The notes below the pieces were generated by a model, which was given only the letters and a program-made list of their open reading frames with translations, ran no database searches and was not told where the DNA came from. A stretch of 64,000 bases of DNA, taken from contig NZ_BNAD01000008.1 in the NCBI RefSeq assembly GCF_014653115.1, forward strand, positions 62,001 through 126,000, read 5' to 3'. Below, piece after piece: positions 6,729-22,839 of the stretch (positions are counted from its first letter, which is position 1; each line of letters begins with the position of its first letter). Origin of the DNA: Nocardioides flavus (ex Wang et al. 2016). GTDB taxonomy: Bacteria > Actinomycetota > Actinomycetes > Propionibacteriales > Nocardioidaceae. Both the position numbers and the translations under genes were made by a program.

Positions 6729-7395
6729 GGCCGAGCACCGCGTCCTGATCATCGACGACCACGTGCTCTTCGCCGAGTCGCTGGAGCTCGCGCTGTCGTT
6801 GGAGGGCTACGACGTACGCCGGCTCGAGCTGCCCGAGGAGGGCGGGTCGATGGCCACCCTGCGGTCGCTGGCGCTGCGCGCCAACCCCCGTACGGTCATC
6901 CTCGACCTCGACCTGGGCCGCTTCGGCGACGGCGTCAACCTGGTCGCGCCGCTGGCCCGTGCCCACGTCAACGTCGTCGTGGTGACCGCGTCGCAGGAGC
7001 TCGGCCGCTGGGGCGAGTGCATGCGGCTCGGCGCGCGGAAGGTGCTCACCAAGAGCGGCGCGCTGCAGCAGGCCCTGTCGACGGTGCGGCGGCTCCACCA
7101 GGGCCTGCCGGTCACCACCCGCGAGGAGCTCGAGTCACTGCTCGACGCGTGGTCGCACCAGAGCCGCGTCGACGACGACATCCGCCGGCGGCTCGACCGG
7201 CTCACCCCGCGTGAGCGGCAGGTTCTCGGGGCCCTCATCGAGGGACGGACCGTGCGTGCCATCTCGCAGGAGAGCGTGGTGTCGGAGGCGACCGTGCGCA
7301 CCCAGGTGAAGTCGATCCTCAACAAGCTCGAGGTGTCGTCGCAGCTCGCCGCCGTCGGGATGGCGAACCAGATCGGCTGGAGGGTCGGGGCATGA
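6712..7395 (+). CDS. NarL/LuxR-family response regulator
   Basis: The 227-residue protein has a receiver domain (VLIIDDHVLFAESLELAL at the start; phospho-acceptor probably Asp65 in TVILDLDLG; VVVTAS and KVLTKSG later). A LuxR DNA-binding domain follows (LTPRERQVLGALIEGRTVRAISQESVVSEATVRTQVKSILNKL). The acidic pocket DD is intact, in contrast to the regulator at 4719-5546. It starts at the GTG at 6712, overlapping the kinase by 17 nt, and its stop overlaps the next ATG, so kinase, regulator and the asparagine-synthase-like gene are probably one transcript. Confidence 0.9.
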   Translation: MHGLSRAEHRVLIIDDHVLFAESLELALSLEGYDVRRLELPEEGGSMATLRSLALRANPRTVILDLDLGRFGDGVNLVAPLARAHVNVVVVTASQELGRWGECMRLGARKVLTKSGALQQALSTVRRLHQGLPVTTREELESLLDAWSHQSRVDDDIRRRLDRLTPRERQVLGALIEGRTVRAISQESVVSEATVRTQVKSILNKLEVSSQLAAVGMANQIGWRVGA

Positions 7396-9188
7396 CCGGC
7401 GCGGGGGTGTGCGGCATCCGCGCCCTCGGGTCCCGGCTCATCACCGAGGACACCCTCCTGCAGATGGCGGCGGCCCAGGACCACCGCGCCGGCGGGGGCG
7501 CCGACGTGTGGCTCGGTCCCGGGGTCGGTCTGGCCCGGTCCCGCCGAGCCGCGGGGCCGCACGCGCCGCTGGCCGAGGTCCGTCCGCAGCCGGTGCGGTC
7601 GGCCGACGGACGCTGGGTGGTGGTCCTCGACGGCGCGATCGTCAACCGGACGAGCCTGCGCGCGTACCTCGACCGTCCCCTCCGTGGCGACGACGCCGAG
7701 CTGGTCGCGGCGGGCCTCGCCCTGCAGGGCATCGGCTTCGTGGAGCGGGTGGAGGGGCGGTTCGCCCTCGTGGCGCACGACTTGCGCACCGGCACCACCC
7801 ACCTGGTGCGCGACCGCATCGGGGCCCTGCCGCTGCACTACCGCCGCGTGCCCGGCGGGGTGGCGTTCGCCTCCGAGGTCAAGGCGCTCCTCGTGCTGGG
7901 CCCTCCCGCGGACGTCGACCACCGCAGCCTCGACGCCTACCTCGCGCACCGCACGGTGCCCGCACCGGACACCCTCGTCGAGGGGGTGAGGAAGGTACGC
8001 CCCGCGCACCGCGTGGCGGTCATGCCCGACGGACACCTGGAGGAGACGGCCTACTGGGCGCCGCCCGACGCCGACCCGGAGGGGACGTGGACCGCCGACG
8101 ACGCGGTCGAGTCCGTGCGCGACGGTGTGCGCGAGGCCGTACGGTCGGCACTCGAGGCCGGCGCCCCGCCCGGCGTCCACCTCACCGGCGGGATCGCCGG
8201 CAGCGTGGTCGCCGCCCAGGCCCGGCAGCTGCTCGGCGACGAGCCCGTGCACACGTTCTCCCTGGCCCTCGGCGACGACGCCGGGGAAGAGCTCGCGCGC
8301 ACCCGGCGCGTGAGCGACCTGCTGGACACGCGTCACCACGACGTCCGCCTGGGTGCCGGCGACGTCGCCGAGCTGTGGGGCCCCCTGACGTGGCACCGCG
8401 ACGCCCCGCTGTCGGGTCCTGCGGACCTCGCCGCGCACGTCCTCGCCCGCACCGCGGCCGAGCACGTGCCGGTGCTCCTGTGCCCGCAGGGCGCCGACGA
8501 GCTCTTCGGAGGGCACTCCCGCCACCGGCTCGCGCGCGTGGCGGAGCGGTCGTACGGCCTGCCCGCGCCCCTCCGCTCGGGCCTGGAGCGACGGGTCGAG
8601 CGACGGCTGGGGGCGACCTTCACCACGTCCGAGCGCCGTCGGTTGCTCGGCCGGAAGGCTCCGCCGGAGCGTCGTGCGAGCCCGGTCGCCGGGGTGCGGC
8701 ACACCCTGCCCGACGACGTCCTCGAGCGCCTCGACCGGATGGCGACGGCAGCCGACCTCGAGGTGCGCCTGCCACTGCTCGAGAGCCGCCTCGTCGAGCT
8801 GGCGTTCCGCCTGCCGAGCCCGGTCAAGGTGCGCGCCGGGTGCACCACGTGGGTGCTGCGCGAGGCTGCCCGTCCGCTGCTGCCCGACGAGGTCCTCGAG
8901 CGCCGCGTGCCCGAGCCCGGCACCGGCTCGTGGTGGTACGCCGGCGTGCGCGACACCGTCCGGGAGCGCCTCACCGGTCCGGGGTCCTGGGTCGCGCAGA
9001 ACCTGGACGGGGCGATGGTGGGCGACATGATGCTGCGCCACGAGCACGGCGCCCACGAGCACGACCGCATCTGGACCCTGCTCTCGCTCGAGCTGTGGCA
9101 CGAGAGCTTCTTCGCAACCGTCCCGGCCGTGCCGCGACCCCGCGGGGCGGTGCACCGGACCGCGACCGGCGCGGCGCGCCTGTCCTGA
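7392..9188 (+). CDS. Asparagine-synthase-like protein with a degenerate ATP-pyrophosphatase loop
   Basis: The 598-residue protein has the two-domain layout of class II asparagine synthases: an N-terminal glutaminase-like domain and a C-terminal synthase-like domain (RDRIG, PQGADELFGG). Two motifs are altered. The P-loop SGGxDSS reads TGGIAGS (about residues 265-271), losing the aspartate that binds the ATP-bound metal, and NGEIYN reads DGAIVN. The ATG at 7392 has GGAGGG upstream and overlaps the regulator stop, but the GTG at 7407 would place Cys directly after Met (MCGIRAL), which an active glutaminase needs. Asparagine synthesis is doubtful; a binding or regulatory role is possible. Confidence 0.82.
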   Translation: MTGAGVCGIRALGSRLITEDTLLQMAAAQDHRAGGGADVWLGPGVGLARSRRAAGPHAPLAEVRPQPVRSADGRWVVVLDGAIVNRTSLRAYLDRPLRGDDAELVAAGLALQGIGFVERVEGRFALVAHDLRTGTTHLVRDRIGALPLHYRRVPGGVAFASEVKALLVLGPPADVDHRSLDAYLAHRTVPAPDTLVEGVRKVRPAHRVAVMPDGHLEETAYWAPPDADPEGTWTADDAVESVRDGVREAVRSALEAGAPPGVHLTGGIAGSVVAAQARQLLGDEPVHTFSLALGDDAGEELARTRRVSDLLDTRHHDVRLGAGDVAELWGPLTWHRDAPLSGPADLAAHVLARTAAEHVPVLLCPQGADELFGGHSRHRLARVAERSYGLPAPLRSGLERRVERRLGATFTTSERRRLLGRKAPPERRASPVAGVRHTLPDDVLERLDRMATAADLEVRLPLLESRLVELAFRLPSPVKVRAGCTTWVLREAARPLLPDEVLERRVPEPGTGSWWYAGVRDTVRERLTGPGSWVAQNLDGAMVGDMMLRHEHGAHEHDRIWTLLSLELWHESFFATVPAVPRPRGAVHRTATGAARLS

Positions 9189-9517: not shown

Positions 9518-11032
9518 ATGACTCAGATCTCGTTGAGGACCACCGGGCTGGACGTCGAGCCGGTCACGGCTGTCCCGAGGCCACGCGAGGCGGTGGTGGA
9601 CGGCCCGACCGTCCTCCTGCCCCCGCGACACCCCGAGCGTGCCGACGAGCAGCCGACCGCGGCCCACGGCAGGAAGCCCGCGTCCGAGTCCCCCGCCCGT
9701 GCCCGTGGACGCAGCCTGAGCGTGCGGTCGTTCGTCGTCGACGCGGTGCTCGCGGCCGGCCTGGCCGCCGCGTGGGCCGTGTCCGGGACACTGCCTCCCG
9801 GGCTCGCAGGTGCTGCCGCCCTTGCCTGGCCCGTGCTCCTGCTCGCGACCGGCCACTACCGACGCGGCGCGCTCGGCGAGACCCGCGCCGGACGTGTCCG
9901 CGCGATCCTCGGATCCGGCCTGCGCGGGTCGGTCCTGGCCCTGGCTGCCTCGCCCTTCCTCACCACCATCGACCTGATCGCGCTGGCCCAGCTGGTCGCG
10001 GCCTTCGCGGTCGCGAGCGGCACCCACCACCTCGTCGCCGCACGCCGCTCGCGTCCGCGGCTCGTGCTGGCCGGGCACGGGCCTGACCTGCGGACGGCCA
10101 TGGCAGAGCTCGACACGGCCGGCATCCACGAGGTCGTCGCGGTCTGCCTGACCGGGGGCTCGCAGGACTCGTTCGCCGACGAGCTGCCGGCCTACGAGGG
10201 CCTGGAGTCCGCCGTACGGGCCGCGGACGACCACCAGGCCGACGCCCTCGTGGTGCTGCCGAGCGCACGCCGCACCCCCGTCGAGATGCGACGCCTCCAC
10301 TGGGCGCTGGCCGGTGTCGGCGCCGAGCTGTGCGTCGGCACCGGGCTCCTCGACGTCGAGCCGCAGCGCACGCGCCTGCTGTCCGGCGCCGGCCTGGGCG
10401 TCCTGCACGTCAGCGGCCCCGTCCTCGACGGTCCGCGTCGCTTCCTCAAGGACGTGGTGGAGCGATCGGTCGCACTCCTCGCCCTGCTCGTGGCGCTGCC
10501 CCTGCTGGCCGCACTGGCACTGGCGATCCGCATCGAGACCCCGGGCGCGGCCCTCTTCCGGCAGCAGCGCATCGGGCGCAACGGCGTCCCGTTCACGATG
10601 CTCAAGCTGCGGTCGATGGGCGTGGACGCCGAGGCCCAGCGCACGGCGCTCTCCGACAGCAACGAGAAGGACGCCGTGCTCTTCAAGATCCAGCTCGACC
10701 CGCGGATCACTCCGCTCGGCCGGGTGCTGCGGAAGTACTCGCTGGACGAGCTGCCGCAGCTGTGGAACGTCGTGCGCGGGGACATGTCGCTCGTGGGGCC
10801 GCGCCCCGCGCTGCCCGGCGAGGTCGCCCGGTACGACGTGGACCCGCGACGCCGCCTCGTGGTGAAGCCCGGCGTCACCGGCCTGTGGCAGGTCTCCGGA
10901 CGCTCGGACCTCAGCTGGGAGGAGTCCGTGCGGCTCGACCTCAGGTACGTGGACAACTGGTCGCTGGGGCTGGACCTCGCGATCCTGGCCCGTACGGTCC
11001 GGGCCGTCCTCGGCCACCGCGGTGCCTACTGA
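9518..11032 (+). CDS. Exopolysaccharide initiating sugar-phosphate transferase (WcaJ/WbaP-like polyisoprenyl-phosphate transferase)
   Basis: This 504-residue membrane enzyme starts polysaccharide repeat-unit assembly by moving a sugar-1-phosphate onto a lipid phosphate. The N-terminal 65 residues are disordered. Hydrophobic segments follow (about 70-165), then a CoA-binding-like domain (LVLAGHGPDLRTAMAELD), then the catalytic C-terminal domain with its re-entrant helix (VALLALLVALPLLAALALAIRI), FRQQRIGRNG, LRKYSLDELPQLWNVVRG, DMSLVGPRPALPGE and KPGVTGLWQVSGRS. It heads the polysaccharide region and is likely co-transcribed with the ABC exporter gene 66 nt downstream. Confidence 0.93.
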   Translation: MTQISLRTTGLDVEPVTAVPRPREAVVDGPTVLLPPRHPERADEQPTAAHGRKPASESPARARGRSLSVRSFVVDAVLAAGLAAAWAVSGTLPPGLAGAAALAWPVLLLATGHYRRGALGETRAGRVRAILGSGLRGSVLALAASPFLTTIDLIALAQLVAAFAVASGTHHLVAARRSRPRLVLAGHGPDLRTAMAELDTAGIHEVVAVCLTGGSQDSFADELPAYEGLESAVRAADDHQADALVVLPSARRTPVEMRRLHWALAGVGAELCVGTGLLDVEPQRTRLLSGAGLGVLHVSGPVLDGPRRFLKDVVERSVALLALLVALPLLAALALAIRIETPGAALFRQQRIGRNGVPFTMLKLRSMGVDAEAQRTALSDSNEKDAVLFKIQLDPRITPLGRVLRKYSLDELPQLWNVVRGDMSLVGPRPALPGEVARYDVDPRRRLVVKPGVTGLWQVSGRSDLSWEESVRLDLRYVDNWSLGLDLAILARTVRAVLGHRGAY

Positions 11033-11097: not shown

Positions 11098-12960
11098 ATG
11101 GCGTCGACCGATCCGTTCGACCCCGTCTCGGTGCACGTCGCGGCTCGCTCGCAGCGCAGGTCGTGGAGCAGGCTCGTACGCCTGGTCAGGTCGAGCCTCG
11201 CCCTCGTGCGGGTCTCGGGCCGACGACACTTCTCGGCCCTGGTCTGCCTCCAGGTGGCGGCCGCTGCCGCCCTGGCCTTCCAGGTCCTCGCGGTGCAGTC
11301 GCTGCTCTCCGCCGTCCTCGCAGCGGAGGAGGGCGCGACCGTCGATGCGGCGATCGGCCCCATCCTCCTGCTCGCCGGGCTCACGGCGACGACGGCCGTC
11401 CTGGGCGTGTGCCAGTCGCAGCTGCAACGCGTGCTCGGCGAGCTCGTGGCCCGCACGATGTGGGGGCGCGTCCTCCGGGTGGCGACCGGGGTCGACCTCT
11501 ACCACTTCGAGACACCCGCGTTCTACGACCACCTCGAACGCGTCCAGACCCACGCCGTCGGCCGGCCCTACCAGGTGACACAGGGGTTGCTGGCCATGGC
11601 CGGGGCCACCGTGGCGAGCATCGGGCTAGGTGTCGCCCTGGCGAGCATCTCGCCCCTCCTCCTCGTCCTCGTCGCCGCCGGTGGGGTGCCGGTGCTCCTG
11701 ACGAGCCGTCGCGAGTCCCGGCTCGAGTTCGGGTTCTCGGTGCAGCAGACGGCGGTCCTGCGCGAGCGGACCTACCTCGCTCTCGTCCAGACCGGTCGGG
11801 ACGAGGCGAAGGAGGTGCGGGCGTTCGGCCTCGGCGACTGGCTCCGGTCGAGGTTCGACGACAGCTACGAGCGCTACCTGGGGGCGCTCCGCCGGCACGC
11901 AGCCCGACGGACCGTGCTCGCGCTCGTCGGCCAGCTGGGCTCGGCGGCCATCCTCGCGGGCACGCTCCTGGTGCTCGTACGGCTGGTCTCGCAGGGCAGC
12001 ATCGGCGTGGCCGAGGCGGGCGCCGCCGTCGTCGCCATGCGGCTGCTCGCCGGCCAGGTCCAGTCCCTGTTTCGCGGCATGCAGGTGATCTTCGAGTCCG
12101 GGCTGTTCCTCGACGACCTCGACCGGTTCCTGGAGCTCGGCCGCTCGTTCGTCGACCAGTCGCGGGGCGTCGAGGCACCCGTGTCGTTCGGGACCATCCG
12201 GGTGGACGACGTGCGGTTCAGCTACCCGGGTTCGTCCGTCGAGGCGTTGCGCGGGATCAGCCTGGAGCTCCACGCGGGCGAGATCGTCGCAGTGGTCGGC
12301 GAGAACGGGTCCGGCAAGACCACCCTGGCCAAGCTGTTGGCCGGTCTCTACCGCCCGGCCAGCGGCCGGATCACCTGGGACGGCTCCCACATCGACGACT
12401 TCCGTCCCGGCAGCCTGCGCGAGCGCATCAGCGTCACCTTCCAGGACTTCGTCCGCTACGCGTTCAGCGGCGCCGAGAACATCGCCGTGGGCCGGGTCGA
12501 GGAGGCGGCGTCGGACGACAGGGTGCGGCGGGCGGCCCACGTCGCCGGCGCAGATGACGTCCTGGAAGCACTGCCCCACGGCTACGACACGTTGCTGTCC
12601 CGGCTGTTCTCCGGTGGCGTCGACCTGTCCGGCGGGCAGTGGCAACGCGTCGCGCTCGCCCGGTCCTTCTTCCGCGACGCGCCGCTGATGATCCTCGACG
12701 AGCCGAGCGCCGCACTGGACCCGCGAGCGGAGCACGCGTTGTTCAGCAGCCTTCGCGACGTGCTCGACGGGCGGACCGCGCTGTTCATCTCCCACCGGTT
12801 CTCCACGGTGCGCGGGGCCGACCGCATCGTCGTCATGGACGCCGGCACCGTCGTCGAGGAGGGCACCCACTCCGAGTTGATGGCTGCCGGCGGCCTCTAC
12901 GCCGACCTCTACCGCTTGCAGTCGGACACCGACGTCGGCGGTGACGCTGCCTCGAGCTGA
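11098..12960 (+). CDS. ABC exporter (membrane domain fused to ATPase)
   Basis: The 620-residue half-transporter has an N-terminal six-helix membrane domain (about 35-340) and an ATPase domain with Walker A GENGSGKTT, signature LSGGQWQRVALARS and Walker B LMILDEPSAALD. The fusion and size suit a lipid, polysaccharide or peptide exporter. It lies convergent to the lasso-peptide operon (38 nt apart), so it could be the missing D-type lasso exporter, or it could serve the polysaccharide with the sugar transferase upstream; the sequence alone does not decide. The ATG at 11098 follows GGAG at 5 nt; the longer open frame is an overlap artefact. Confidence 0.9.
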   Translation: MASTDPFDPVSVHVAARSQRRSWSRLVRLVRSSLALVRVSGRRHFSALVCLQVAAAAALAFQVLAVQSLLSAVLAAEEGATVDAAIGPILLLAGLTATTAVLGVCQSQLQRVLGELVARTMWGRVLRVATGVDLYHFETPAFYDHLERVQTHAVGRPYQVTQGLLAMAGATVASIGLGVALASISPLLLVLVAAGGVPVLLTSRRESRLEFGFSVQQTAVLRERTYLALVQTGRDEAKEVRAFGLGDWLRSRFDDSYERYLGALRRHAARRTVLALVGQLGSAAILAGTLLVLVRLVSQGSIGVAEAGAAVVAMRLLAGQVQSLFRGMQVIFESGLFLDDLDRFLELGRSFVDQSRGVEAPVSFGTIRVDDVRFSYPGSSVEALRGISLELHAGEIVAVVGENGSGKTTLAKLLAGLYRPASGRITWDGSHIDDFRPGSLRERISVTFQDFVRYAFSGAENIAVGRVEEAASDDRVRRAAHVAGADDVLEALPHGYDTLLSRLFSGGVDLSGGQWQRVALARSFFRDAPLMILDEPSAALDPRAEHALFSSLRDVLDGRTALFISHRFSTVRGADRIVVMDAGTVVEEGTHSELMAAGGLYADLYRLQSDTDVGGDAASS

Positions 12961-12999: not shown

Positions 13000-13989
13000 T
13001 CACGGGTGCCCGACCTCGCGCACCTCCTCCACCAGCGCGGGCGACGCATGGAGGTAGGCCGTCGTGCGACGCTTCTGCTCGATGTCGCGATAGACACGCT
13101 GGACCTGCTCGACACTCAAGCCCGTGGCCTCGGCGACCTCCTCGGTGGGCACACCGTTGTTGAGGGCGTAGAGGCAGAGGTCCATGCGCGGGTACGGCAG
13201 GGAGAAGTAGAACTCCTCCTGCGACTGGGGCAGCGAGTAGGTGTCCGTCGTCGACGGGCGGTCCTGGATCTCCTGCGGCACGCCGAGGTGCGCCGCCAGG
13301 GCGTAGACCTGGGTCTTGTAGAGGTGGGCGATCGGCTTCACGTCGGCGGAACCGTCGCCCAGCTTCACGAAGAAGCCCTGGTCGTACTCGAGCCGGTTGG
13401 GCGTGCCGGCGACGACGTAGTTGAGGCGGTCGGCGTGGAAGTACTCCAGCATCTTGCGGGTGCGCTGCTTGAAGTTCGTGGCCGCCACGATCTCCAGGTA
13501 GGCCTCGGCTGTCAGGCGGTGCATGGTCTGGGTGCCGTCCGGCGCCTGCACGACCACGGAGTAGAGCCGCAGCGAATCAGAGTCGACGACGCTCGGCAGG
13601 ACGATCTTCGACTTGTGGTCTGGCCCGTAGTCAGGCACGACCCGGCGAATCGCGTCGTCGCGTCGTCTGTAGCACCCGGCCGCCTCGAGGATGGGTGAGA
13701 TGTCCTCGTGGACCGAGTCGATGCCGAGTGCGTCGGTGAGGCCGGTGCTGAGCCCCAGCGTCTCGTCCGCGGACTCCGACTCGGGCATGTGCAGTCCGAA
13801 CACCCGCTCGGGTCCGAGCGCGCGTACGCACAGTGCCGCGACCACGCTGGAGTCGATGCCTCCCGACACCGCGACGACCGCGCCCTTGCGCTTGTTGCGG
13901 CGCAGGTAGTCCCGCAGCATCTGCGTGACGCGGCCAACCTCCGCCTCTGCGTCGATGGCCAGGGCCTCGGGTCCGAACGCTAGCGCCAT
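13000..13989 (-). CDS. NAD synthase-like ATP-pyrophosphatase (ammonia-dependent type)
   Basis: A 329-residue protein with the NadE fold: P-loop AVSGGIDSSVVAALC (about 39-53), VVAGTPNRLEYDQGFFVKLGDGSADVKPIAHLYKTQV in the substrate region, and a C-terminal helical part. It lacks a glutaminase domain, so it would use free ammonia. The N-terminal half carries an insertion around 100-150 that I do not recognise. It overlaps the end of asnB by 10 nt and closes the lasso/AsnB operon, so a special role in making an amide or adenylated intermediate is as likely as housekeeping NAD synthesis. Catalytic residues look intact. Confidence 0.8.
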   Translation of the reverse strand: MALAFGPEALAIDAEAEVGRVTQMLRDYLRRNKRKGAVVAVSGGIDSSVVAALCVRALGPERVFGLHMPESESADETLGLSTGLTDALGIDSVHEDISPILEAAGCYRRRDDAIRRVVPDYGPDHKSKIVLPSVVDSDSLRLYSVVVQAPDGTQTMHRLTAEAYLEIVAATNFKQRTRKMLEYFHADRLNYVVAGTPNRLEYDQGFFVKLGDGSADVKPIAHLYKTQVYALAAHLGVPQEIQDRPSTTDTYSLPQSQEEFYFSLPYPRMDLCLYALNNGVPTEEVAEATGLSVEQVQRVYRDIEQKRRTTAYLHASPALVEEVREVGHP

Positions 13990-15980
13990 GCTGTGCTCCT
14001 CTGTGAGTCCACCAGGTCGAATACGGCTGTGGGATGGGGCGGGCGAGCCAGCACGCGAGCGTGCCCGTGGCCCATGAACTGTTCGTGCAGCAGCTGGACC
14101 GACAGCACCGCGGACACACGCATGCTGTCGGTGTGGGAGAGCGCCCTGCCGCGGGACCGACGCGCCTTCTCCAGCAGCGACCGGACCACCACCGGTTTGA
14201 AGACCCCGGCGGCGTCCACGGCCTCGGGCGACGTCACGTCCGCGACCCAGTCGGGGGCGTCGACACCCACGAAGCCCGAGGCGTCCGGCGCTCGGTAGGG
14301 CTGCTTGGGGCGCGCGACGATCTCGGGAGGGAGGAGGTCGCGGAACGCTCGCTTGAGCAAGTGCTTCTCATCGAGGCCGAGGATCTTCTGGCGCGCCGGC
14401 AGCCGCCCGGCGAGCTCAATGACATCGGCGTCGAGGAACGGGAACCGCCCCTCGACCGAGTTGGCCATGAGCATCCGGTCACCCTGCGAGGCGAGGATGT
14501 AACCGGGCAGCAGCGTGCTCATCTCGAGCCACTGGGCGCGTGACAGCCCGTCCCACCCGGATGCCTCCGCCGGCATCCGGCCGACGAGGTCGGCCGCGGC
14601 ATCGCTCACGCCCTCGCTCCACCCTCCGGCCAGCATCGCCTTGAGGGACGACGTGCTGTCCCACCGGGGCCGGTGCGAGAGCGCGAGATCGGCCGGGTCG
14701 AGGTTGCGACCGAAGAACCCGCGGGCGAACGCCGGCGCCTGGTTGGGATTGCGTCCCAACCACGGGTAGAGCAGCTCGATCGCGCGGGCCCGCTGCGGTG
14801 CCCCGGGGTCACGCGCCCAGAACTCGCGCACCCTGGCCTCGCGGAAGATGTCATAGCCCGCCAGCACCTCGTCGGAACCCTCGCCGGTCACGACCACCTT
14901 GTAGCCGGAGTCGCGCACGAGGCGCGACAGCAGGAACATCGGGGCCGGCGCCGTGCGCAGGAGGGGCGTCTCGGCGTGGCGAACGACCTCTGGGAACACC
15001 TCGCCGATGTCGCGGTGGGACACCACCACGTCCCTGTGGCTCGTGCCGAGCCGCCGAGCCATCGTCGCCTGGTGCTCTCCCTCGTCGTACTCGGCGTCGG
15101 CGAAACGGAGGGAGAAGGTGTGGAGGTCGGCGTCGGTGAACTCGCGGATGATGCCGGCCGTCACCGCCGAGTCGATGCCGCCCGAGAGATAGGCCCCGAC
15201 GGGGAAGTCGCTGCGCTCGAAGCGCAGCCGCGTCGCGTGGATGAGACGCTCCCGCAACTGCCCGGCGTGGGCGTCGAGGTCGTCCGAGGACCCGCCACCC
15301 CGCTCCGGGAAGGTGGGCTGCCAGAAGGTCTGCGGCTCACCGACGACGCCGTCGCGGCACACGACGTAGGTTCCGGGACGGACCTGTGAGACGCCGGCGA
15401 AGACGGTGCGGGGGGCGACGGCCGACCAGAAGGTGAACACCTGGTCGAGGCCCAGCGGGTCGAGTCCGCGGACCACCTGCGGATCGGCGAACAACGCCTT
15501 GACCTCGGAGGCGAACACCAGCCGATCCCCCGCCGACGCGTGGTAGAGCGGACGGACGCCGAGCCGGTCGCGGCAGAGCACGAGCTCGGAGGTCCGCCTG
15601 TCCCAGATCGCGAGCGCCCACTGGCCGTTGAAGCGCTCGAAGCAGCCGGGTCCCCACTCCTCCCACGCGTGCACGATGACCTCGGTGTCGCTGTGGGTGC
15701 GGAAGTCGTGACCGCGGTCCGCGAGCTGGGCGCGGAGCTCGACGTAGTTGAAGATCTCGCCGTTGAAGGTGACCCACACGTCCTCGCGCTCGCCGCACAT
15801 CGGCTGCACGCCGAGGCCCGGATCGATGATCGCGAGCCGCGTGTGGCCGAGGGCCACGGACTCGTCGCGGTAGTAGCCGCTGCCATCCGGGCCGCGGTGG
15901 CTCAGCGCCGTCATCATGCGCAGCAGCAGGTCGGTGTCGGGCAGGTCGGACTGCGACTGGATCCCCGCGATGCCGCACAT
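13980..15980 (-). CDS. asnB: Asparagine synthase (glutamine-hydrolysing), canonical class II type
   Basis: The 666-residue protein keeps every active-site motif: Cys2 (MCGIAGI), HRGPDGSGYY, FNGEIFNYVELR, HSDTEVIVHAW, the P-loop LSGGIDSAV, and VTGEGSDEVLAGYD. It should transfer glutamine-derived ammonia to a carboxylate activated with ATP. Free aspartate is the textbook substrate, but paralogues in polysaccharide and secondary-metabolite clusters amidate sugars or peptides. It starts within the stop of the carrier-like gene and ends inside the NAD synthase-like gene, so it belongs to the same transcript as the lasso genes. It is the only fully canonical member of the three AsnB-family proteins in this window. 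Confidence 0.88.
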   Translation of the reverse strand: MCGIAGIQSQSDLPDTDLLLRMMTALSHRGPDGSGYYRDESVALGHTRLAIIDPGLGVQPMCGEREDVWVTFNGEIFNYVELRAQLADRGHDFRTHSDTEVIVHAWEEWGPGCFERFNGQWALAIWDRRTSELVLCRDRLGVRPLYHASAGDRLVFASEVKALFADPQVVRGLDPLGLDQVFTFWSAVAPRTVFAGVSQVRPGTYVVCRDGVVGEPQTFWQPTFPERGGGSSDDLDAHAGQLRERLIHATRLRFERSDFPVGAYLSGGIDSAVTAGIIREFTDADLHTFSLRFADAEYDEGEHQATMARRLGTSHRDVVVSHRDIGEVFPEVVRHAETPLLRTAPAPMFLLSRLVRDSGYKVVVTGEGSDEVLAGYDIFREARVREFWARDPGAPQRARAIELLYPWLGRNPNQAPAFARGFFGRNLDPADLALSHRPRWDSTSSLKAMLAGGWSEGVSDAAADLVGRMPAEASGWDGLSRAQWLEMSTLLPGYILASQGDRMLMANSVEGRFPFLDADVIELAGRLPARQKILGLDEKHLLKRAFRDLLPPEIVARPKQPYRAPDASGFVGVDAPDWVADVTSPEAVDAAGVFKPVVVRSLLEKARRSRGRALSHTDSMRVSAVLSVQLLHEQFMGHGHARVLARPPHPTAVFDLVDSQRSTAWR

Positions 15981-16198
15981 CAGGCGTCACCCAGCAGGCG
16001 GCGTACGGTTCGCTCGCGCGCGGCAGGCGGCACGAGGTGCTCGGCGTCGAGCTGGTCGGCAGGAACGGTCACGCCGAGCGCCAGCTCGAGGTGGACCGCG
16101 AGGGCGAGCGCCGCGAGCTCCGGGTCGCCGGGCTCGACCGGCACCTCGGCGAGCTCGACGAGCACCCGGTCGATGGCTGACGCGTCCACGCTCAGCAT
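15980..16198 (-). CDS. Small carrier-protein-like protein lacking the phosphopantetheine serine
   Basis: A 72-residue protein encoded between the kinase and asnB, overlapping both neighbours by a few bases. The segment GDPELAALALAVHLELALG followed by VTVPADQLDAEHL resembles helix 2 to helix 3 of acyl carrier proteins, but the DSL motif is replaced by DPE, so it could not carry phosphopantetheine. The ATG at 16198 is set by overlap with the kinase stop. It may act as a docking or allosteric partner of AsnB, or carry a substrate in some other way; this is inference. It could also be an unrelated small helical protein. Confidence 0.65.
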   Translation of the reverse strand: MLSVDASAIDRVLVELAEVPVEPGDPELAALALAVHLELALGVTVPADQLDAEHLVPPAARERTVRRLLGDA

Positions 16199-17208
16199 CG
16201 TGCACCCAAGTCGCGGTCGATGTCCTCGGTTTGGGAGCGGGGGGCGAGAACGCCGTCGAGCTCGGCGAGGAGCCTGGCGGCGAGGTCGGGCTCGAACGGC
16301 GGCCCCCACGGGACGTCGGCGACGAGGACGGGTACGCGCTCGGCGAGGTCGCTCGTCTGGAGGAGCTGGCCGGCGAGCACGTCATGGTCACGGATGCCGG
16401 GGATCCGCGGAAGACCCAGCAGGCACAGCGTGGCCGCGGCCGGAGCCACCCGTGTGAGTGTCAGCATCGTGCTGTCACGGCGGGGCCGCGGGACGAGCAG
16501 TGCCGTCACCGGCAGGTCGTCCGCCGTGGCGGCCGGGACGGTCAAGGCGCGGCGCTGGTCGGCGGTGTCCCGGTGCGAGCCGCCCTCGGCGAAGTCCTCG
16601 ACCAGGCCGGAGGCGGCCTGGCGCAACCGCAGCTCGGTGGCGCCCAGGGCACAACGGTGGACACCCGTCGCGTCCCGGGTCACCCCCAGGACGTCGTCGG
16701 TGACGAGCAGGCCGCCGTCGCGGCACATGAGGGTCGCCATCGTGGACTTGCCCATGCCCGACGCCCCGACGAACCCGAGAGCCCGCCCGCCCACGTCGAC
16801 GGCGCTGGCGTGCAGCACCAGCTCGCCGCGCAGGATGAGCAGCCAGGACAGGACGGTCCCGCCGACGAGGACCCCTGCCATTGCGTCCGGGACCCCGTCG
16901 ACCATGTTCACCGTGATGCGATCGAGGGTCGCGGGGATGACGACGTCGCAGGTCCCCTCGAAGCGGAGCAGGTGGCTGCCGTCATCACGGCGTACGAAGC
17001 GTGCCGTCAGGTCTCCTGCCGTCGTCCACTGCGCCATCACCTCGCCCTCGGGCACCTCCTGCGTGGCAGGGATGGTCTCCCCCAGCCGGACGGTCACGTC
17101 ATGCCTGGTCGCCGACAGCGGGCGACGGGCGTGGAGGTCGATGTCGGAGATGACGTCGAGACCGTAGATGCGGCACGCGAAGCCGGCCCCTCCACCAGTG
17201 CCCGTCAC
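16192..17208 (-). CDS. HPr-kinase-like lasso-peptide precursor kinase
   Basis: The 338-residue protein has the HprK catalytic core: LHASAVDVGGRALGFVGASGMGKSTMA (HAS 133-135; Walker A 148-156) and LVTDDVLGV (Asp171/172). In lasso-peptide clusters such as that of paeninodin, HprK homologues phosphorylate the side chain of the C-terminal Ser of the precursor. Here the adjacent precursor also ends in Ser, so that role is the best hypothesis. It starts at a GTG overlapping the stop of B2 (GTGA), and its own end overlaps the carrier-like gene. The N-terminal 110 residues show no other known domain. Homology to HPr kinase itself is distant, and no HPr gene is near. Confidence 0.85.
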   Translation of the reverse strand: MTGTGGGAGFACRIYGLDVISDIDLHARRPLSATRHDVTVRLGETIPATQEVPEGEVMAQWTTAGDLTARFVRRDDGSHLLRFEGTCDVVIPATLDRITVNMVDGVPDAMAGVLVGGTVLSWLLILRGELVLHASAVDVGGRALGFVGASGMGKSTMATLMCRDGGLLVTDDVLGVTRDATGVHRCALGATELRLRQAASGLVEDFAEGGSHRDTADQRRALTVPAATADDLPVTALLVPRPRRDSTMLTLTRVAPAAATLCLLGLPRIPGIRDHDVLAGQLLQTSDLAERVPVLVADVPWGPPFEPDLAARLLAELDGVLAPRSQTEDIDRDLGARC

Positions 17209-17645
17209 GACCGAGCACTCTCGACAGGCGCGAAGTCGGCGGCGCCGGGGTCAATGCTGAGCCCGCCGATCTCGATCCATGCGTGGGCCTTGACCACTCC
17301 GTCGTGCTTGGCGACACCGATCCGCAGGACGGGGTCGAGGTCCCGGACCAGGAACCCCCCGACCAGGGCCATGCGCAGGCAGCTGTCGCCGAAGGGCCAG
17401 TACTTCAGTGCCCGGCGGGCTGCGGCGAGCCGACGCCGCGCGCGACGCGGCACGATGACGGGAGCGGCGATGTCGGGCTCGCGAGGGCCGACCGTGTCGA
17501 GAGGGACTCCGAGCAGCCGCGACAGACGCGGCAGCCGTACCGTGTGAAGACCGATCTCGACGACCGCACTGACGACCAGCGCGATTGCGGTCCTTGCCAC
17601 GTCGGTCGCTCCCACCCCGTGGACGGCGAATCCATCCCCGCTCAC
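17205..17645 (-). CDS. Lasso-peptide leader protease B2 (transglutaminase-like)
   Basis: This 146-residue protein is of the usual size for a stand-alone B2 protein. The catalytic triad is visible: Cys89 in FGDSCLRMALVGGFLVRD, His121 in VKAHAWIEIGG and Asp132 in SIDPGAADFAPV. The Cys-to-His spacing of 32 and the following Asp fit the McjB-type cysteine protease fold. It removes the leader from the precursor after delivery by the PqqD-like B1 protein. It starts at a GTG overlapping the cyclase stop (GTGA) and ends in a GTGA overlap with the kinase, so translation is coupled. It is easily missed because longer reading frames overlap it. Confidence 0.92.
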   Translation of the reverse strand: MSGDGFAVHGVGATDVARTAIALVVSAVVEIGLHTVRLPRLSRLLGVPLDTVGPREPDIAAPVIVPRRARRRLAAARRALKYWPFGDSCLRMALVGGFLVRDLDPVLRIGVAKHDGVVKAHAWIEIGGLSIDPGAADFAPVESARS

Positions 17646-18925
17646 CACGACGGCTCCTCTCGGTGTTGCACGGTGGCGAGCCACGCCGCGTGGAGCGGTG
17701 GGGTCGAGATCGCCGAAGGAAAGTCCGAGAGCCACTCCGCTCGGAGCACGTCGACGTCGACCAGGTCGGGAGCGAGCCCCGATCCGTCCCAGCTCTCGGC
17801 GAATGCGCGGGTCTCGGCGCCGATGAAGGCGCGGTTGAAGTAGGCCTTCGTCCGCCTCGCGATGACGACATCCGGCAGTAGGTCGCCGACGAGTGCACGC
17901 ATCGCCTCGGTGCGCGAGGCGTAGCCCCAGGTGCCGGCGCTGCGGGCGAGCGCTCCCACGAACCGAAGGTCGAGCAAGGGTTCGTGCATCACGAGCCCGT
18001 GCTCGGCAGCGAGGACCGCGTAGTTGTGGGAGGCCACCGCTGCGGCTCGCCGCGTGAGCAGCCACTCCAGCGATCGCGGAGCGCCGAGCGGCTCGGCGGC
18101 GATGTCCGCAGCCAGCAGCCGGTGGTGCCGCTCCCGAGCGGCGGGGCGCAGCCACGGCTGCATGTTGCTGCTCTCGAGGTGCGCCCGAGCGCGACGGCTG
18201 CGGTAGGAGCGAGGGGCTGCCGCGGAGCCGGCGGCGCGCAGGTCGTGCGCACGCAACGCGCGTGCGGGGCGTCGCCAGAGCCGGCTCACCTGGGCGCCAC
18301 GACGTCGGCCGAGCACCTCGTCGCCTCCCTCGCCGGTGACGATCGAGCCGGCACGTCCGAGCTGTGAGAGCACCGCGGGCTTCGCGTGCAGCGCGACGGG
18401 CCACAGCAGGCCTCGAGCCCGCAACGAGTCCTGCGCGGCAGACCCGAGCAGGTCGTTGCCTGCAGGGAACGACAGCCGCACCCAGTCACGAAGGCCCAGG
18501 TGCGCCATCACGAGATGCTGCCACTCGGACTCGTCGGACTCCGGCACGCCGGGGTAGAGCTCCGTGAACGGAACGGGGTCGGGCAGGCCATCTCGACGGG
18601 CGACCTGCGTGGCGACAGCCAGGAGCGCGGAGGAGTCGCGGCCGCCGGAGAAGGCAACGAAGCACGGCGGCTGCTCGAGTGCAGCCAGGACGAGGGCCTC
18701 CAGCGCCGCGCGTGGCGATTCGACGCGACGCGGGTCCAGCGCCTGCACGGAGGTCAGCCCGTGCACCCAGCTCGTGGCGACCTCGAAGGGCGAGGGACGG
18801 CAGTAGTCGACGACTGACGGTCGGTCGACCGTGTCGGACGGTCGTGGGCGGTCAGCCGTGCTCAGGTCATCCCACACGGTCGTGCTTGCTCGTGGCGATG
18901 GCGCCGAGCGTCCGGTCGACGACAC
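17642..18925 (-). CDS. Lasso-peptide cyclase C (asparagine-synthase-like), short form
   Basis: The 427-residue protein carries an asparagine-synthase-type ATP-pyrophosphatase domain: P-loop FVAFSGGRDSSALLAVA (about 89-105) and VTGEGGDEVLG (about 205). In lasso biosynthesis this enzyme adenylates the ring Asp/Glu and closes the macrolactam with the new N-terminus. Typical cyclases are about 500-600 residues because they keep a glutaminase-like N-terminal domain; here only about 90 unrecognised residues precede the P-loop. The GTG at 18925 (GAGG upstream) is the furthest useful start; a GTG at 18874 is possible. A 142-nt gap separates it from B1, the largest in the operon. Confidence 0.88.
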   Translation of the reverse strand: MSSTGRSAPSPRASTTVWDDLSTADRPRPSDTVDRPSVVDYCRPSPFEVATSWVHGLTSVQALDPRRVESPRAALEALVLAALEQPPCFVAFSGGRDSSALLAVATQVARRDGLPDPVPFTELYPGVPESDESEWQHLVMAHLGLRDWVRLSFPAGNDLLGSAAQDSLRARGLLWPVALHAKPAVLSQLGRAGSIVTGEGGDEVLGRRRGAQVSRLWRRPARALRAHDLRAAGSAAAPRSYRSRRARAHLESSNMQPWLRPAARERHHRLLAADIAAEPLGAPRSLEWLLTRRAAAVASHNYAVLAAEHGLVMHEPLLDLRFVGALARSAGTWGYASRTEAMRALVGDLLPDVVIARRTKAYFNRAFIGAETRAFAESWDGSGLAPDLVDVDVLRAEWLSDFPSAISTPPLHAAWLATVQHREEPSW

Positions 18926-19067
18926 ACGCCGCCTCGTGCAGTTTCATCTTCTCGCAGCCCCCCTCTCTCCGGATGCGGTAGCTCAGACGCAGGCGCACGC
19001 TCGTCGCTGACCAGTACCCGACGAGATGCGTCCCTGCACTGCGCGACGGACCAGCCTGCTGTCGAGC

Positions 19068-19367
19068 TCAGCCTCCGTCGTCCATGCGCGTGTGGATCAA
19101 CAGCCCCTGCTCGGCGAGCGCAGCGACGAACGAGCTCGCGTCTGCGTCTGCCTGAGCCGTGCTGATCCCGAACTCGCGGACCAGGCTCGACACGAGCGAC
19201 GGATGGTCCTGCGACTCCGTGAGCAGCCGCAGCAGGAACGTGCCCGTGCTGTTGGCTGCGAGGTAGGTCGAGCCGGCAAGATCCAGGAGGACCGCCTCAC
19301 CGTCGATCTCTCGCATCACGAGGTCGCGGTCGCGCAACCGCACGGTCGACGGACCGTCGACCATCAT
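19068..19367 (-). CDS. PqqD-like leader-binding protein B1 (RiPP recognition element)
   Basis: A 99-residue PqqD-family protein: VRLRDRDLVMREIDGEAVLLDLAGSTYLAANSTGTFLLRLL, followed by a helical half (LVREFGISTAQADADASSFVAALAEQGLL). The beta-strand part binds the YxxPxL motif of lasso leaders and hands the precursor to the B2 protease. The ATG at 19367 overlaps the stop codon of the precursor (TGATG), so A and B1 are translationally coupled. Length and domain order match B1 proteins of actinobacterial lasso clusters, in which B1 and B2 are separate polypeptides. Confidence 0.92.
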   Translation of the reverse strand: MMVDGPSTVRLRDRDLVMREIDGEAVLLDLAGSTYLAANSTGTFLLRLLTESQDHPSLVSSLVREFGISTAQADADASSFVAALAEQGLLIHTRMDDGG

Positions 19368-19528
19368 CAGGATCCAAATCCCGGGCCCGTGTAGTCGTCT
19401 CCGCCGAAGAGCGGTCCGAAGACAGGGACCCAGGCCAGGTTGTCGCTGCCGGGGTGAAAGGCCTGCCCCTGGGTCATGCCGACGACGGTGCCGATGACGT
19501 GCAATTCAGGTGCCTCGTAGTGACGCAT
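19367..19528 (-). CDS. Lasso-peptide precursor A (53 residues), predicted 33-residue core ending in Ser
   Basis: The leader is MRHYEAPELHVIGTVVGMTQ. It contains Y4-x-x-P7-x-L9, the motif read by B1, and Thr19 at the -2 position before the cut, as in characterised lasso leaders. The core would begin at Gly21 with GQAFHPGSD, so an isopeptide bond between Gly1 and Asp9 gives a nine-residue ring. The tail contains Trp13, several Gly/Pro/Phe residues and Asp24-Asp25, has no Cys, and ends GPGFGS. The final Ser fits phosphorylation by the kinase encoded downstream. GGGGG lies about 7 nt before the ATG. The gene is too short for ordinary gene finders. No other start/core combination places an acidic residue at position 7-9. 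Confidence 0.88.
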   Translation of the reverse strand: MRHYEAPELHVIGTVVGMTQGQAFHPGSDNLAWVPVFGPLFGGDDYTGPGFGS

Positions 19529-19636: not shown

Positions 19637-20023
19637 TCAGTCCGGCCCGGTCTCGGCGATGACGGTCGCCACGACCCGTCCGCCGGTGCGGCAGGTCGAG
19701 ACGTGGAGCCAGGCGAGACCCACGGCGGCCGCTGCCACGCCCATCTCGCCGTGCAGGACGACGCGCCAGGCCGCCTCCCTCTCGAGCACCTCGATGTCGC
19801 GCCACCTCACCTCGTGTGCGAAGCGAGCTCCCAGCGCCTTGTAGGACGCCTCCTTGACGGCGAAGCGAGTCGCGGCCGCTGTCGCCGGCTGGTCGTGCGC
19901 CAGGCACTCCCGGACCTCCGCCTCGGTGTACCAGTGTGCCCAGAGGCCACCCGGTCCACGACGGACGAGCCTGTCGAACCGGCGGGTGTCCGCAACGTCC
20001 ATGCCGACGCCGATGACGCTCAC
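19637..20023 (-). CDS. acpS: Holo-[acyl-carrier-protein] synthase (AcpS type)
   Basis: A 128-residue phosphopantetheinyl transferase that moves 4'-phosphopantetheine from CoA to a carrier-protein serine. Hallmarks are GVGMDVADTRRFDRLV (magnesium Asp near residue 9) and TRFAVKEASYKALG (the Glu/Lys pair, about residues 52-65). The natural local partner is the carrier protein encoded at 22546-22839. AcpS is normally encoded elsewhere among housekeeping genes, so this may be a dedicated second copy. It lies on the minus strand downstream of the SGNH-like and acyl-ligase genes. Confidence 0.88.
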   Translation of the reverse strand: MSVIGVGMDVADTRRFDRLVRRGPGGLWAHWYTEAEVRECLAHDQPATAAATRFAVKEASYKALGARFAHEVRWRDIEVLEREAAWRVVLHGEMGVAAAAVGLAWLHVSTCRTGGRVVATVIAETGPD

Positions 20024-20068
20024 CGACGAGGACCGTGGGGCGCGATCGCCTCGGATGTCATCGTCGGC

Positions 20069-20902
20069 TCAGGCGAGAGCGTCAGCCAGGACGGCGATGA
20101 ATGCGGAGGCCGCGACCTGAGCCCCTCGCGCGTTGAGGTGCCCGGGGTCCTTCGCATAGTCGTCACTCAGGGAGTAGTACGTCTCGCCGCGACTCGAGAA
20201 CGCGACGCGCTCGCCGCTCGGGTCAGTCGACTGCACCGCCGCTATGTCGAACAGGCGCCCGGGCTCGTCGAACTCCGCTCGTACGAGAGAGTTGAAGCGC
20301 TGACGGAGCACGTTGTGCTCCGGTCCGTACCGGTCGCCTCTGCCGAACAGCGCCTTGAGCTTGCCCTTCGGTCCCCGTTCGGTCGTGAGGGGGGCAGTAG
20401 CCGCGACGAACGCCGTCGCCGGGTAGTCGCGCGCCAACGCAGCGAGGGTGTCGCGATAGGCCGTGAAGATCTCGTCGACGTCCGCCTCACCAGCCCGCAG
20501 GTCCACGTAGCAGAGCTTCAGGACCGCGGCGTCGACCTGCTCCGCCATCCCCTCACGCATGATGCGGTCGAAGTTCGCGATCTTCTCCAGCGGACGGCCG
20601 TTCTCCCCGATCTCGACGTGCACGATGGCCTCAGCCTCTGGCGCTTCGCGAGACTCCACGATCGACGGGGCATCGACCCCAGCTCGCTCGTACACCTCAG
20701 GGAGCCCGTCGAGCACGTTGAAACCGACGGACCTGTGGCCGAAGAAGACCCGGCTACCTGCCACGGCCTGGAGGTCCGCCGTCGTGGCATCGGGCGCCTC
20801 GAACGGCTCACCGTCCACCCGATCGGCCCACACGACTGCGCCCAGCCCGACCGTGGCGAGCATCCCCAGCGCAGCAACGACGGCGACAACTGCCTTAACC
20901 AT
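20069..20902 (-). CDS. Secreted or membrane-anchored SGNH-hydrolase-like protein
   Basis: The 277-residue protein starts with an uncleaved or cleavable hydrophobic segment (MVKAVVAVVAALGMLATVGLG). It then has an alpha/beta domain with VFFGHRSVGFNVLDGLPE, VDAAVLKLCYVDL and the C-terminal block KDPGHLNARGAQVAASAFI, where the His/Asn-rich stretch resembles the last active-site block of SGNH enzymes. A clear GDS block is not visible, so esterase activity is unproven. The ATG at 20902 (AGGAGG upstream) overlaps the end of the acyl-ligase gene, so the two are coupled. A role in adding or removing acyl groups from the polysaccharide is inferred from context. Confidence 0.65.
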   Translation of the reverse strand: MVKAVVAVVAALGMLATVGLGAVVWADRVDGEPFEAPDATTADLQAVAGSRVFFGHRSVGFNVLDGLPEVYERAGVDAPSIVESREAPEAEAIVHVEIGENGRPLEKIANFDRIMREGMAEQVDAAVLKLCYVDLRAGEADVDEIFTAYRDTLAALARDYPATAFVAATAPLTTERGPKGKLKALFGRGDRYGPEHNVLRQRFNSLVRAEFDEPGRLFDIAAVQSTDPSGERVAFSSRGETYYSLSDDYAKDPGHLNARGAQVAASAFIAVLADALA

Positions 20903-22448
20903 GACGTCCTCCTGTCTGGACGAGCTCTGCGCCGTCGGTCGGCGCCTCCCCATCCGAGCGCGCCCAGGCGCGAAGCTCGGTCTTGACCACCTTGCCGTTC
21001 TGGTTGAGTGGCAGGTGGTCGATGATCCGGACCTCGTGCGGGACGAGGTGCTTGGCGAGGCGGGTCCGCAGGTGCGCCTCGATCTCGTCGACGCCCACCG
21101 TGGCCCCGGGCCGCAGGGCGGCGAAGAGCACCACAGCCTCGCCTGCGTCGGGGTCGGGGCGACCCACCGCAGCCGCCTGCGCCACGGCGCCGAGCTCGAG
21201 AGCGACGTCCTCGACCTCGTGGCTCGAGACCCGATAGCCCCAGGACTTGATGAAGTCGTCGCGGCGGTCGACCACGTGGAGGAAGCCGTCCTCGTCCATG
21301 CGGCCGAAGTCTCCCGTCAGCAGCTCCCCGTCGACGTACTTCTCGGCGGTGCCGGTCGGGTCATCCCAGTAGCCCAGGGTGACGTTTGCGCCGCGTGCGC
21401 GGATCTCTCCGACCGTCCCGGGGGCGACGTCGCGGCCCTGCTCGTCGGCGATGCGGAGCGACACTCCCGGGATCGCCCGGCCGACCGAACCCGCCTTGGC
21501 GGCGAGCATCTCGGGCGGGAGGTACGCCAGCCGCGCCGTGGCCTCGGTCTGGCCGTACATTAGGAACAGCCGGGCGTGCGGCTGGGCCGCCACGACCCTG
21601 TCCACCTGCGCGCTTGGCAGCCGCCCACCGGCCTGCTGCAGGTGACGCAGCGAAGGGAGGGCGCGGGACTCGAACGAGCTGGCTCGGAGGAGCAGCTGGT
21701 AGGACGACGGCACGCCGGCGAAGCCGGTGCAGCGATCCGCCTCGATCGCCTCGACGATGGTCTCGGGGAAGGCCTGGGTCTCGCAGATCCGCAGGCTGGC
21801 CCCGACGGCGAGGTGCGTGTGCAGCAAGGACGCACCGAAGCAGTAGGAGAACGGCAGGACCACGAGCATCCGGTCGTCACGCCTCAGATCGAGGTACTCG
21901 ACGATCGAGGCCGTGTTGGCGAGCACGTTGTCATGGCCGACCCTGACCGCTCGTGGACGGCTGGTGGTGCCCGACGTGAACACCAGCACGGCCGACTCTG
22001 CCGGCGGACGCGCGTCGGGAAGGGGTCGCTCCGCATCCGTTGCCAACAGCTCGCGCATGGCCGAGCTCGTCGCTGTGCGCTCCACAGACCCCGTCACCGT
22101 GGCGAACCGTCGCGTCAACCGCTCGTCGATCAACAGGGCCGCGCAGCCGGCGTGCGCCATCTTGCTGCGGATGTCGTCGGAGGTCAGCACGGGCGCGAGC
22201 GGTACGGCCGTGTGGCCGGCGCGCATGACGGCCAAGTAGCTTGCGACCCAGAAGATCGAGTTGGCCCCGAGGAGGGCTACCCGCGAGCCCGCAGGGAGGT
22301 CCCAGTAGAGCAGCAGCTTCGTCTGGTGGCCCACCGCGCGACGCAGGTCCCGGTAGGTGTGGCGGCCCGTCGCATCGATGATGGCGACGTCGTCCGGGCG
22401 CCCCTCGCACAACAAGGCATCACTCGCATTGCCGTTCGGCCGATCCAT
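20895..22448 (-). CDS. Acyl-CoA/acyl-ACP synthetase (AMP-binding family)
   Basis: A 517-residue adenylate-forming enzyme with the P-loop VFTSGTTSRPRAV, MYGQTEATARL, GDFGRMDEDGFLHVVDRRDD and the catalytic lysine in NQNGKVVKTEL near the C-terminus. It activates a carboxylic acid with ATP and passes it to CoA or a carrier protein. The divergent carrier-protein gene at 22546 and the AcpS downstream suggest loading of that carrier. I prefer the ATG at 22448 (AGGGGGAC upstream) over the longer frame from 22484. The acid substrate cannot be predicted by eye. Confidence 0.88.
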   Translation of the reverse strand: MDRPNGNASDALLCEGRPDDVAIIDATGRHTYRDLRRAVGHQTKLLLYWDLPAGSRVALLGANSIFWVASYLAVMRAGHTAVPLAPVLTSDDIRSKMAHAGCAALLIDERLTRRFATVTGSVERTATSSAMRELLATDAERPLPDARPPAESAVLVFTSGTTSRPRAVRVGHDNVLANTASIVEYLDLRRDDRMLVVLPFSYCFGASLLHTHLAVGASLRICETQAFPETIVEAIEADRCTGFAGVPSSYQLLLRASSFESRALPSLRHLQQAGGRLPSAQVDRVVAAQPHARLFLMYGQTEATARLAYLPPEMLAAKAGSVGRAIPGVSLRIADEQGRDVAPGTVGEIRARGANVTLGYWDDPTGTAEKYVDGELLTGDFGRMDEDGFLHVVDRRDDFIKSWGYRVSSHEVEDVALELGAVAQAAAVGRPDPDAGEAVVLFAALRPGATVGVDEIEAHLRTRLAKHLVPHEVRIIDHLPLNQNGKVVKTELRAWARSDGEAPTDGAELVQTGGRHG

Positions 22449-22545
22449 CCGTCCCCCTGTACAGCGCCGCACTCCGGGCGTCATCCTTACGCGGGAGCGT
22501 AGGTCGCCGATCGTCGGCAGTCATCGCTGAAATGGGGGTTGCGGA

Positions 22546-22839
22546 ATGCACGAGAACCGCGAGCATGGCGTTGTGAACCAAGGTGTGATGGATCAGGTAC
22601 GAGACTTCATCGTGACGAACTTCCTGTTCGGGGACGACTCGAGACTGCCCGGGGCGAACGACTCGCTCCTGGAGTCCGGGTTGGTGGACTCCACGGGCGT
22701 CCTCGAGATCGTGGACTTCCTCGAGACCGACATGCAGGTCGCGGTGGCGGATGACGAGACGCTGCCGAGCAACCTCGACAGCATCGAGAACCTGACCTCG
22801 TTCATCACGCGCAAACGCTCAGCCACCGCGATGGGCTGA
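22546..22839 (+). CDS. Acyl carrier protein
   Basis: A 97-residue acidic carrier protein. The phosphopantetheine serine is Ser49 in LLESGLVDSTGVLEIVDFLE. The preceding helix and the following VADDETLPSNLDSIENLTSFI fit the four-helix fold. Two starts are possible: the ATG at 22546 (GGGGG upstream) and an in-frame ATG at 22588 giving an 83-residue form closer to the usual ACP length. It is divergent from the acyl ligase, with a 97-nt shared upstream region. It probably carries an acyl unit delivered to the polysaccharide or another product by a neighbouring transferase. Confidence 0.88.
   Translation: MHENREHGVVNQGVMDQVRDFIVTNFLFGDDSRLPGANDSLLESGLVDSTGVLEIVDFLETDMQVAVADDETLPSNLDSIENLTSFITRKRSATAMG

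Follow-up and report, generated by a model that had tools for sequence, protein, structure and literature searches.

A probable pathway for a phosphorylated lasso peptide, with a cyclase short of one domain, in a polysaccharide locus of Nocardioides flavus

We analysed a stretch of 64,000 nucleotides from the soil bacterium Nocardioides flavus (ex Wang et al. 2016), contig NZ_BNAD01000008.1, positions 62,001 to 126,000, which we call the window, and we find that it probably encodes a pathway for a phosphorylated lasso peptide. As read from the sequence, this pathway would comprise a precursor peptide (A), a leader-binding protein (B1), a leader peptidase (B2), a cyclase (C) and a kinase (K), together with a nucleotidyltransferase (N) and an exporter (D), and its product would be a disulfide-free lasso peptide, phosphorylated on a serine at its C-terminus and exported. 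The evidence is of four types: the genes themselves, the domains of their proteins, conservation among relatives, and co-occurrence across genomes. Statements about published systems follow excerpts of the papers cited.

The precursor gene A (19367-19528, minus strand) runs from an ATG at 19528 to a TGA at 19367; in the list of open reading frames (ORFs) it begins six bases earlier, with a TTG. The first-pass annotation had proposed here a 53-codon gene with a YxxPxL leader, threonine at -2, and Gly1 and Asp9 in the core, and all of these features are indeed present: a leader of 20 residues containing YEAPEL and ending in Thr(-2)-Gln(-1), and a core of 33 residues with Gly1 and Asp9, which terminates in GFGS. 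The core contains no cysteine, and its third residue is alanine. A leader profile made from 11 related precursors, with the window excluded, recovers the frame of A at E 3.3e-8 among the 1,092 stop-to-stop frames of the window, as compared with 0.85 for the runner-up. The relatives, of which all the named ones are actinobacterial, accompany genes for B1, C and B2 in three further Nocardioides genomes (G150, G141 and G183), and likewise in Jiangella, Motilibacter, Cellulomonas, G315 and G028.

Together with the window, these relatives form a set of 12 precursors from nine genomes, in which Jiangella, Motilibacter and G315 are each represented twice. The leader tyrosine, the proline and the threonine preceding cleavage are conserved in all 12, and core position 9 is acidic in 10. 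The final residue is serine in 11 of the 12, or in 9 of 10 if we set aside two sequences (one Jiangella, one Motilibacter) that came from a pattern requiring serine. A thirteenth candidate, from G351, was excluded: it has no threonine before the core, it ends in alanine, and its 20 kb hold no kinase match; its inclusion would bring the count of final serines to 11 of 13. Also outside the set are the precursors of G118 and G109, which accompany a full-length cyclase and end in lysine, and those of G115 and G162, which accompany no cyclase and end in serine.

The stop codon of A and the ATG of the B1 gene have their A in common, forming the TGATG overlap with a PqqD-like gene that had been reported earlier. 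B1 (19068-19367, minus strand, with a start possibly a few codons later) is a leader-binding protein of the RiPP recognition element (RRE) type. It matches PF05402 at E 8e-13, above the gathering score, and the NCBIfam lasso PqqD models below their cut-off (46.5 of 70 bits). The genes for C and B2 come next, again as first described. The peptidase B2 (17205-17648, minus strand) matches Transglut_core3 in Pfam (E 1.5e-12) and exceeds the cut-off of the NCBIfam lasso B2 model NF033537, with 55.7 bits versus 33; its Cys-His-Asp residues C89, H121 and D132 are invariant in all four aligned sequences. The B2 profile gave 0 matches among PDB sequences, and B2 gave none when queried against plasmids. 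The assignment to a lasso-peptide cluster with a 33-residue core is upheld by the leader profile, the B2 model and the gene sets of the relatives.

The cyclase candidate C (17642-18877, minus strand, with an alternative GTG start at 18925) consists of the synthetase domain alone. It matches Asn_synthase, PF00733, at E 2e-12, and no GATase domain was detected by Pfam. The spacing between B1 and C in the window is 190 bases, and therefore the missing glutaminase-like domain cannot fit upstream of C. The same architecture is seen in all seven members scanned and in G028 as well (8/8 by Pfam, in a set that excludes the G315 and G351 copies), and the same family contains G118, whose C of 619 amino acids includes the GATase domain. 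The ATP-binding motif SGGxDSS is invariant in 7/7 copies of C, and the predicted model (predicted local distance difference test, pLDDT, of 86) lies nearest to TsnB9, asparagine synthetase and beta-lactam synthetase. No match to C was found among plasmids, and its profile gave 0 matches among PDB sequences. A literature search likewise found no such short lasso cyclase, a weak negative, as none of the matches listed dealt with lasso cyclases. An enzyme of this type, lacking the glutaminase-like domain, would serve as a minimal natural tool for probing the function of that domain in lasso cyclases. A 598-residue AsnB homologue encoded at 7392-9188 was considered as the missing half of the cyclase and was rejected: at E 1e-60 it is found in 15 of 198 genomes, only 3 of which are close lasso genomes.

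The gap between B1 and C contains a small ORF (18867-18998, minus strand), downstream of a G-rich stretch that resembles a Shine-Dalgarno sequence; in G150, G141 and G183 this gap is occupied by A. It may represent a relic, or an ORF that serves in coupling. As regards a decayed precursor, its frame is absent among the listed matches to the leader profile.

The C-terminal serine is the residue phosphorylated by most known lasso kinases. The kinase K (16192-17208, minus strand) is HprK-like, and we propose that it phosphorylates this serine. Residues H133, K154, D171 and D172 are invariant in all six aligned kinases, that of Cellulomonas included. The AlphaFold model of K (pLDDT 76) best matches PEPCK (E 2e-9) and also matches HprK/P (E 1.5e-5), and a profile search of the PDB matches HprK/P as well (E 1.4e-7). 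Excerpts of PMC9266682 describe the same H-K-D-D set for lasso kinases, and they give the C-terminal serine of the linear precursor as the target of PadeK-type kinases. A mass search for the product should also allow steps of +79.97 Da; the calculated masses are 3347.53 Da for the core less one water, 3427.50 with one phosphate, 3507.46 with two, and 3589.55 with a phosphate and a hexose.

The two remaining members of the pathway lie at a distance from A, and we assign them to the lasso system because of their co-occurrence with it in an even draw of 198 genomes of the family, the window's own genome included. B2 matches five of these genomes, namely the four close ones (window, G150, G141 and G183) and G162; the last, with a B2 match at E 4e-6 and no cyclase match in 20 kb, is excluded from the lasso set. 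K matches six, the four close lasso genomes and the distant G115 and G118. The nucleotidyltransferase N (34057-35121, minus strand; PF14907, E 8e-34) is matched in five genomes at E 1e-15, the four close ones and G028, and every one of the five has a lasso cluster. The MsbA-like ABC exporter D (11098-12960, plus strand; TIGR02203 below its cut-off) is matched in seven at E 1e-90: the same four, G028, G109 and G118. These last three also carry lasso-type clusters, of which the G028 kinase is a candidate (no Pfam match at 0.01) and the G109 B2 is putative. Both N and D thus occur in 4/4 of the close genomes that have B2 and K, with Fisher p-values, here and below computed as if related genomes were independent, of 8e-8 for N and 6e-7 for D. 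In the window N is 15 kb from A, and N and D are spread over 24 kb; in G183 N directly follows K, and in G141 it is less than 3 kb from B1 (in both genomes N was detected by tblastn). A query of N against plasmids returned a single weak match, from Halopiger.

From these components we propose the following sequence of steps. B1, by analogy with its family, would bind the YxxPxL leader. K would then phosphorylate the C-terminal serine of the linear precursor, a step suggested by the conserved serine, by the H-K-D-D residues and by the sequence of events reported for PadeK. B2 would cleave after Thr(-2)-Gln(-1), and C would activate Asp9 with ATP and join Gly1 to Asp9 in a ring around the tail, producing a 33-residue lasso, which should be free of disulfides because the core has no cysteine. 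N may modify the phosphoserine, as PsmN reportedly does in pseudomycoidin, a more tentative step; PsmN is presumably a member of PF14907 too. Finally, D would export the product.

Several observations weigh against this pathway. Assuming cleavage after Thr-x, the acidic residue falls at position 10 in Cellulomonas and at 11 in G028. The kinase and the final serine are not always paired, since one G315 precursor that adjoins a kinase ends in glycine, and the lysine-ending precursors of G118 and G109 have kinases present. K itself matches PF07475, the HprK C-terminal domain, at E 7e-5, under the Pfam gathering score, and the precedent of BsfK, which has an H...GK...DD motif, is Ser3 and not the C-terminal serine (PMC10368454, excerpts). 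Lastly, against the NCBIfam lasso cyclase model, which has a cut-off of 525 and includes the domain that C lacks, C reaches 11.3 bits. Because C misses this cut-off and one domain of the model, ring closure by C is something that we infer.

The same shortfall of C is what would be expected if the short C did not close a ring and the product were linear and phosphorylated, akin to the linear polyphosphorylated peptides (LPP) of Bacillota, which likewise have HprK, an NTP transferase, an RRE and an MsbA-like pump. We consider this quite improbable, given that most precursors conserve both a first residue of the Gly/Ala type and Asp9, that a lasso peptidase B2 is present, and that every C compared retains SGGxDSS.

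Alternatively, the run of genes from A to the NAD synthase could form a single tailoring operon. In the window the kinase gene is followed, by overlaps, by genes for a carrier-like protein (72 amino acids, no Pfam match), an AsnB (Asn_synthase plus GATase) and a NAD-synthase-like protein (NAD_synthase), together at 13000-16198, minus strand. The first-pass annotation regarded these genes as an extension of the lasso operon, in which case their proteins would add another group to the lasso. The overlaps are real, and the same overlap is present in G150. Moreover, the NAD synthase is found in nine of the 198 genomes, in 3/4 of the close lasso genomes versus 6/194 of the others (Fisher p 3e-4). 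Overlap alone, however, does not imply membership in the pathway, and on this point the earlier claim is not supported: in G141 the AsnB and NAD synthase genes are on a different contig from the lasso genes; in G183, which has the lasso genes, no NAD synthase match was found at E 1e-30; and, among the nine genomes where the NAD synthase occurs, a B2 match is lacking in six. In G152 and G190, furthermore, the AsnB/NAD synthase pair is placed among other polysaccharide-type genes. We therefore think it very unlikely that these genes tailor the lasso, and we leave them unassigned. Stronger candidates for partners are the HprK-like kinase, the MsbA-like exporter and the PF14907 nucleotidyltransferase. 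What the earlier reading missed is the meaning of the kinase together with the serine, the distant N, the exporter on the opposite strand, the domain absent from the cyclase, and the polysaccharide locus.

In addition to 13000-16198, a second segment at 19637-22839 bears on these genes: the two together hold AsnB and the NAD synthase with a phosphopantetheinyl transferase (PPTase), an AMP-binding ligase and an acyl-carrier-protein-like (ACP-like) gene, and a similar set, without lasso genes, is found in G152 and G190. It thus seems to form a separate module linked to polysaccharide.

The proposed lasso pathway is embedded in a polysaccharide locus (9518-39919) that includes a sugar transferase (9518-11032), Wzy_C (24450-25838), a pyruvyl transferase and GT2 genes. 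Taking eight proteins of the window as markers, we find at least one match in 6/9 other lasso loci versus 0/20 control stretches (p 2e-4), a comparison in which the marker set is drawn from the window itself, Nocardioides supplies three of the nine loci, the G351 locus has a broken C, and the controls come from four of the lasso-locus genomes. Outside Nocardioides the markers are found in 3/6 lasso loci (p 0.008). The Motilibacter locus, L036, ends at 10.4 kb with its contig, a cut that limits what this locus can tell about a kinase; L038, a weak match that yielded no gene calls, was excluded. The cluster lies at most about 31 kb from a prs-rplY-pth block (named by eye) in four Nocardioides and in Jiangella, and it adjoins a prs-like gene in Motilibacter.

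Because the cluster sits in a polysaccharide locus, its position suggests that the lasso peptide has a cell-surface role rather than that of a classical antibiotic. A stronger form of this idea is that the peptide is a surface component: K would phosphorylate the tail serine, N would convert the phosphate into a sugar linkage, the ring would be made by a stripped-down cyclase, and the peptide would be exported with the polysaccharide or fixed to it. We regard this version as unlikely.

Many lasso peptides, on the other hand, are antimicrobial, and it is quite conceivable, while still falling short of probable, that this one is an antibiotic or a signal unrelated to polysaccharide, the locus being no more than a favourable site for mobile gene sets to settle in. 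Three of the nine lasso loci do have no polysaccharide marker within the DNA stretches compared, and excerpts of PMC13381572, a paper of 2026, describe a patchy gain and loss in Bacilli. What argues for a connection with polysaccharide is the difference between the lasso loci and the controls, as well as the same neighbourhood among Bacillota relatives, where, according to those excerpts, capsular polysaccharide loci of Bacilli often house paeninodin-like clusters with HprK, an NTP transferase and an MsbA-like transporter. The excerpts describe paeninodins as confined to Bacillota and their role as unknown. For rumen Firmicutes, excerpts of PMC7533575 report lasso clusters with HPr kinase, nucleotidyltransferase and EpsH nearby, and they state that most precursors conserve a serine in their C-terminal part.

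How, then, does the proposed lasso pathway of the window relate to these systems? Paeninodin-like clusters (PadeK, ThcoK) resemble it in A, the split B1/B2, C, an HprK-like kinase with H-K-D-D, the final serine, the NTP transferase, the MsbA-like pump and the polysaccharide locus; the window differs in its phylum, Actinomycetota, in having tyrosine rather than tryptophan in the leader, in a C without the glutaminase-like domain, and in the spread of N and the exporter across 24 kb. Excerpts of PMC13381572 define the paeninodin clade by a Trp-type leader motif preferred by RREs and by its restriction to Bacillota; here all 12 leaders have tyrosine and the named relatives are all actinobacterial. 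The system probably operates in the manner of C-terminally phosphorylated lasso peptides and is outside the paeninodin clade so described, set apart by its tyrosine leader and its phylum. Pseudomycoidin (PsmK, PsmN; PMC9266682, excerpts) likewise combines a kinase and a nucleotidyltransferase with a precursor that has a C-terminal serine, in a different phylum, and in the window N is 15 kb from A. The Bsf cluster of Bradymonadales (PMC10368454, excerpts) shares the HprK-type kinase and B1/B2/C, and has Ile(-2) and a phosphorylated Ser3 where the window has Thr(-2), a final serine and alanine as core residue 3. The LPP (PMC13381572, excerpts) share the RRE, HprK-like kinase, NTP transferase, MsbA-like pump and capsule loci, and they have an SpI-like peptidase and no cyclase, in contrast to the B2 and C of the window (no search was aimed at SpI).

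None of the literature matches listed named a comparable actinobacterial cluster in its title or the start of its abstract. What is new here is an actinobacterial branch of the phosphorylated lasso type, whose cyclase is short of a domain and whose genes are scattered within a polysaccharide locus. As a second case, far from Bacilli, with a like gene set and neighbourhood, it makes the idea of a surface role testable in another phylum.

Adjoining N is a possible accessory pair, an APH-type phosphotransferase and a second ABC transporter (31045-33794, minus strand), which we leave as accessory because, of the 198 genomes, the window and G150 alone contain it; a 26% ABC relative adjoins B2 in G315. 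In the G315 locus (L049:3700-15400), a single one of the polysaccharide type, short cyclases, HprK-like kinases and precursors each number two; the precursors differ from each other, and one of them contains two cysteines and ends in glycine.

Loci in G115 (L070:8502-13450) and G162 (L025:7478-10580) combine a kinase, a PF14907 gene and a B2-type peptidase with YxxP-leader peptides that contain Gly/Asp-Ile repeats and end in GLGS. The peptidase passes NF033537 in G115 and is a weak tblastn match in G162, and no cyclase match was found within 20 kb at either locus; these loci may make linear phosphorylated peptides with the help of a lasso-type B2. In the same family, G118 (L031:4737-11396) and G109 (L069:5165-11823) carry a second type of kinase-bearing lasso cluster, with a full-length C; by eye their precursors have Val(-2) and Ser3, resembling the Bsf type of PMC10368454. 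Elsewhere in the window, 57845-60601 encodes a protein of 918 amino acids that fuses a group 1 glycosyltransferase with Stealth regions CR1-CR4.

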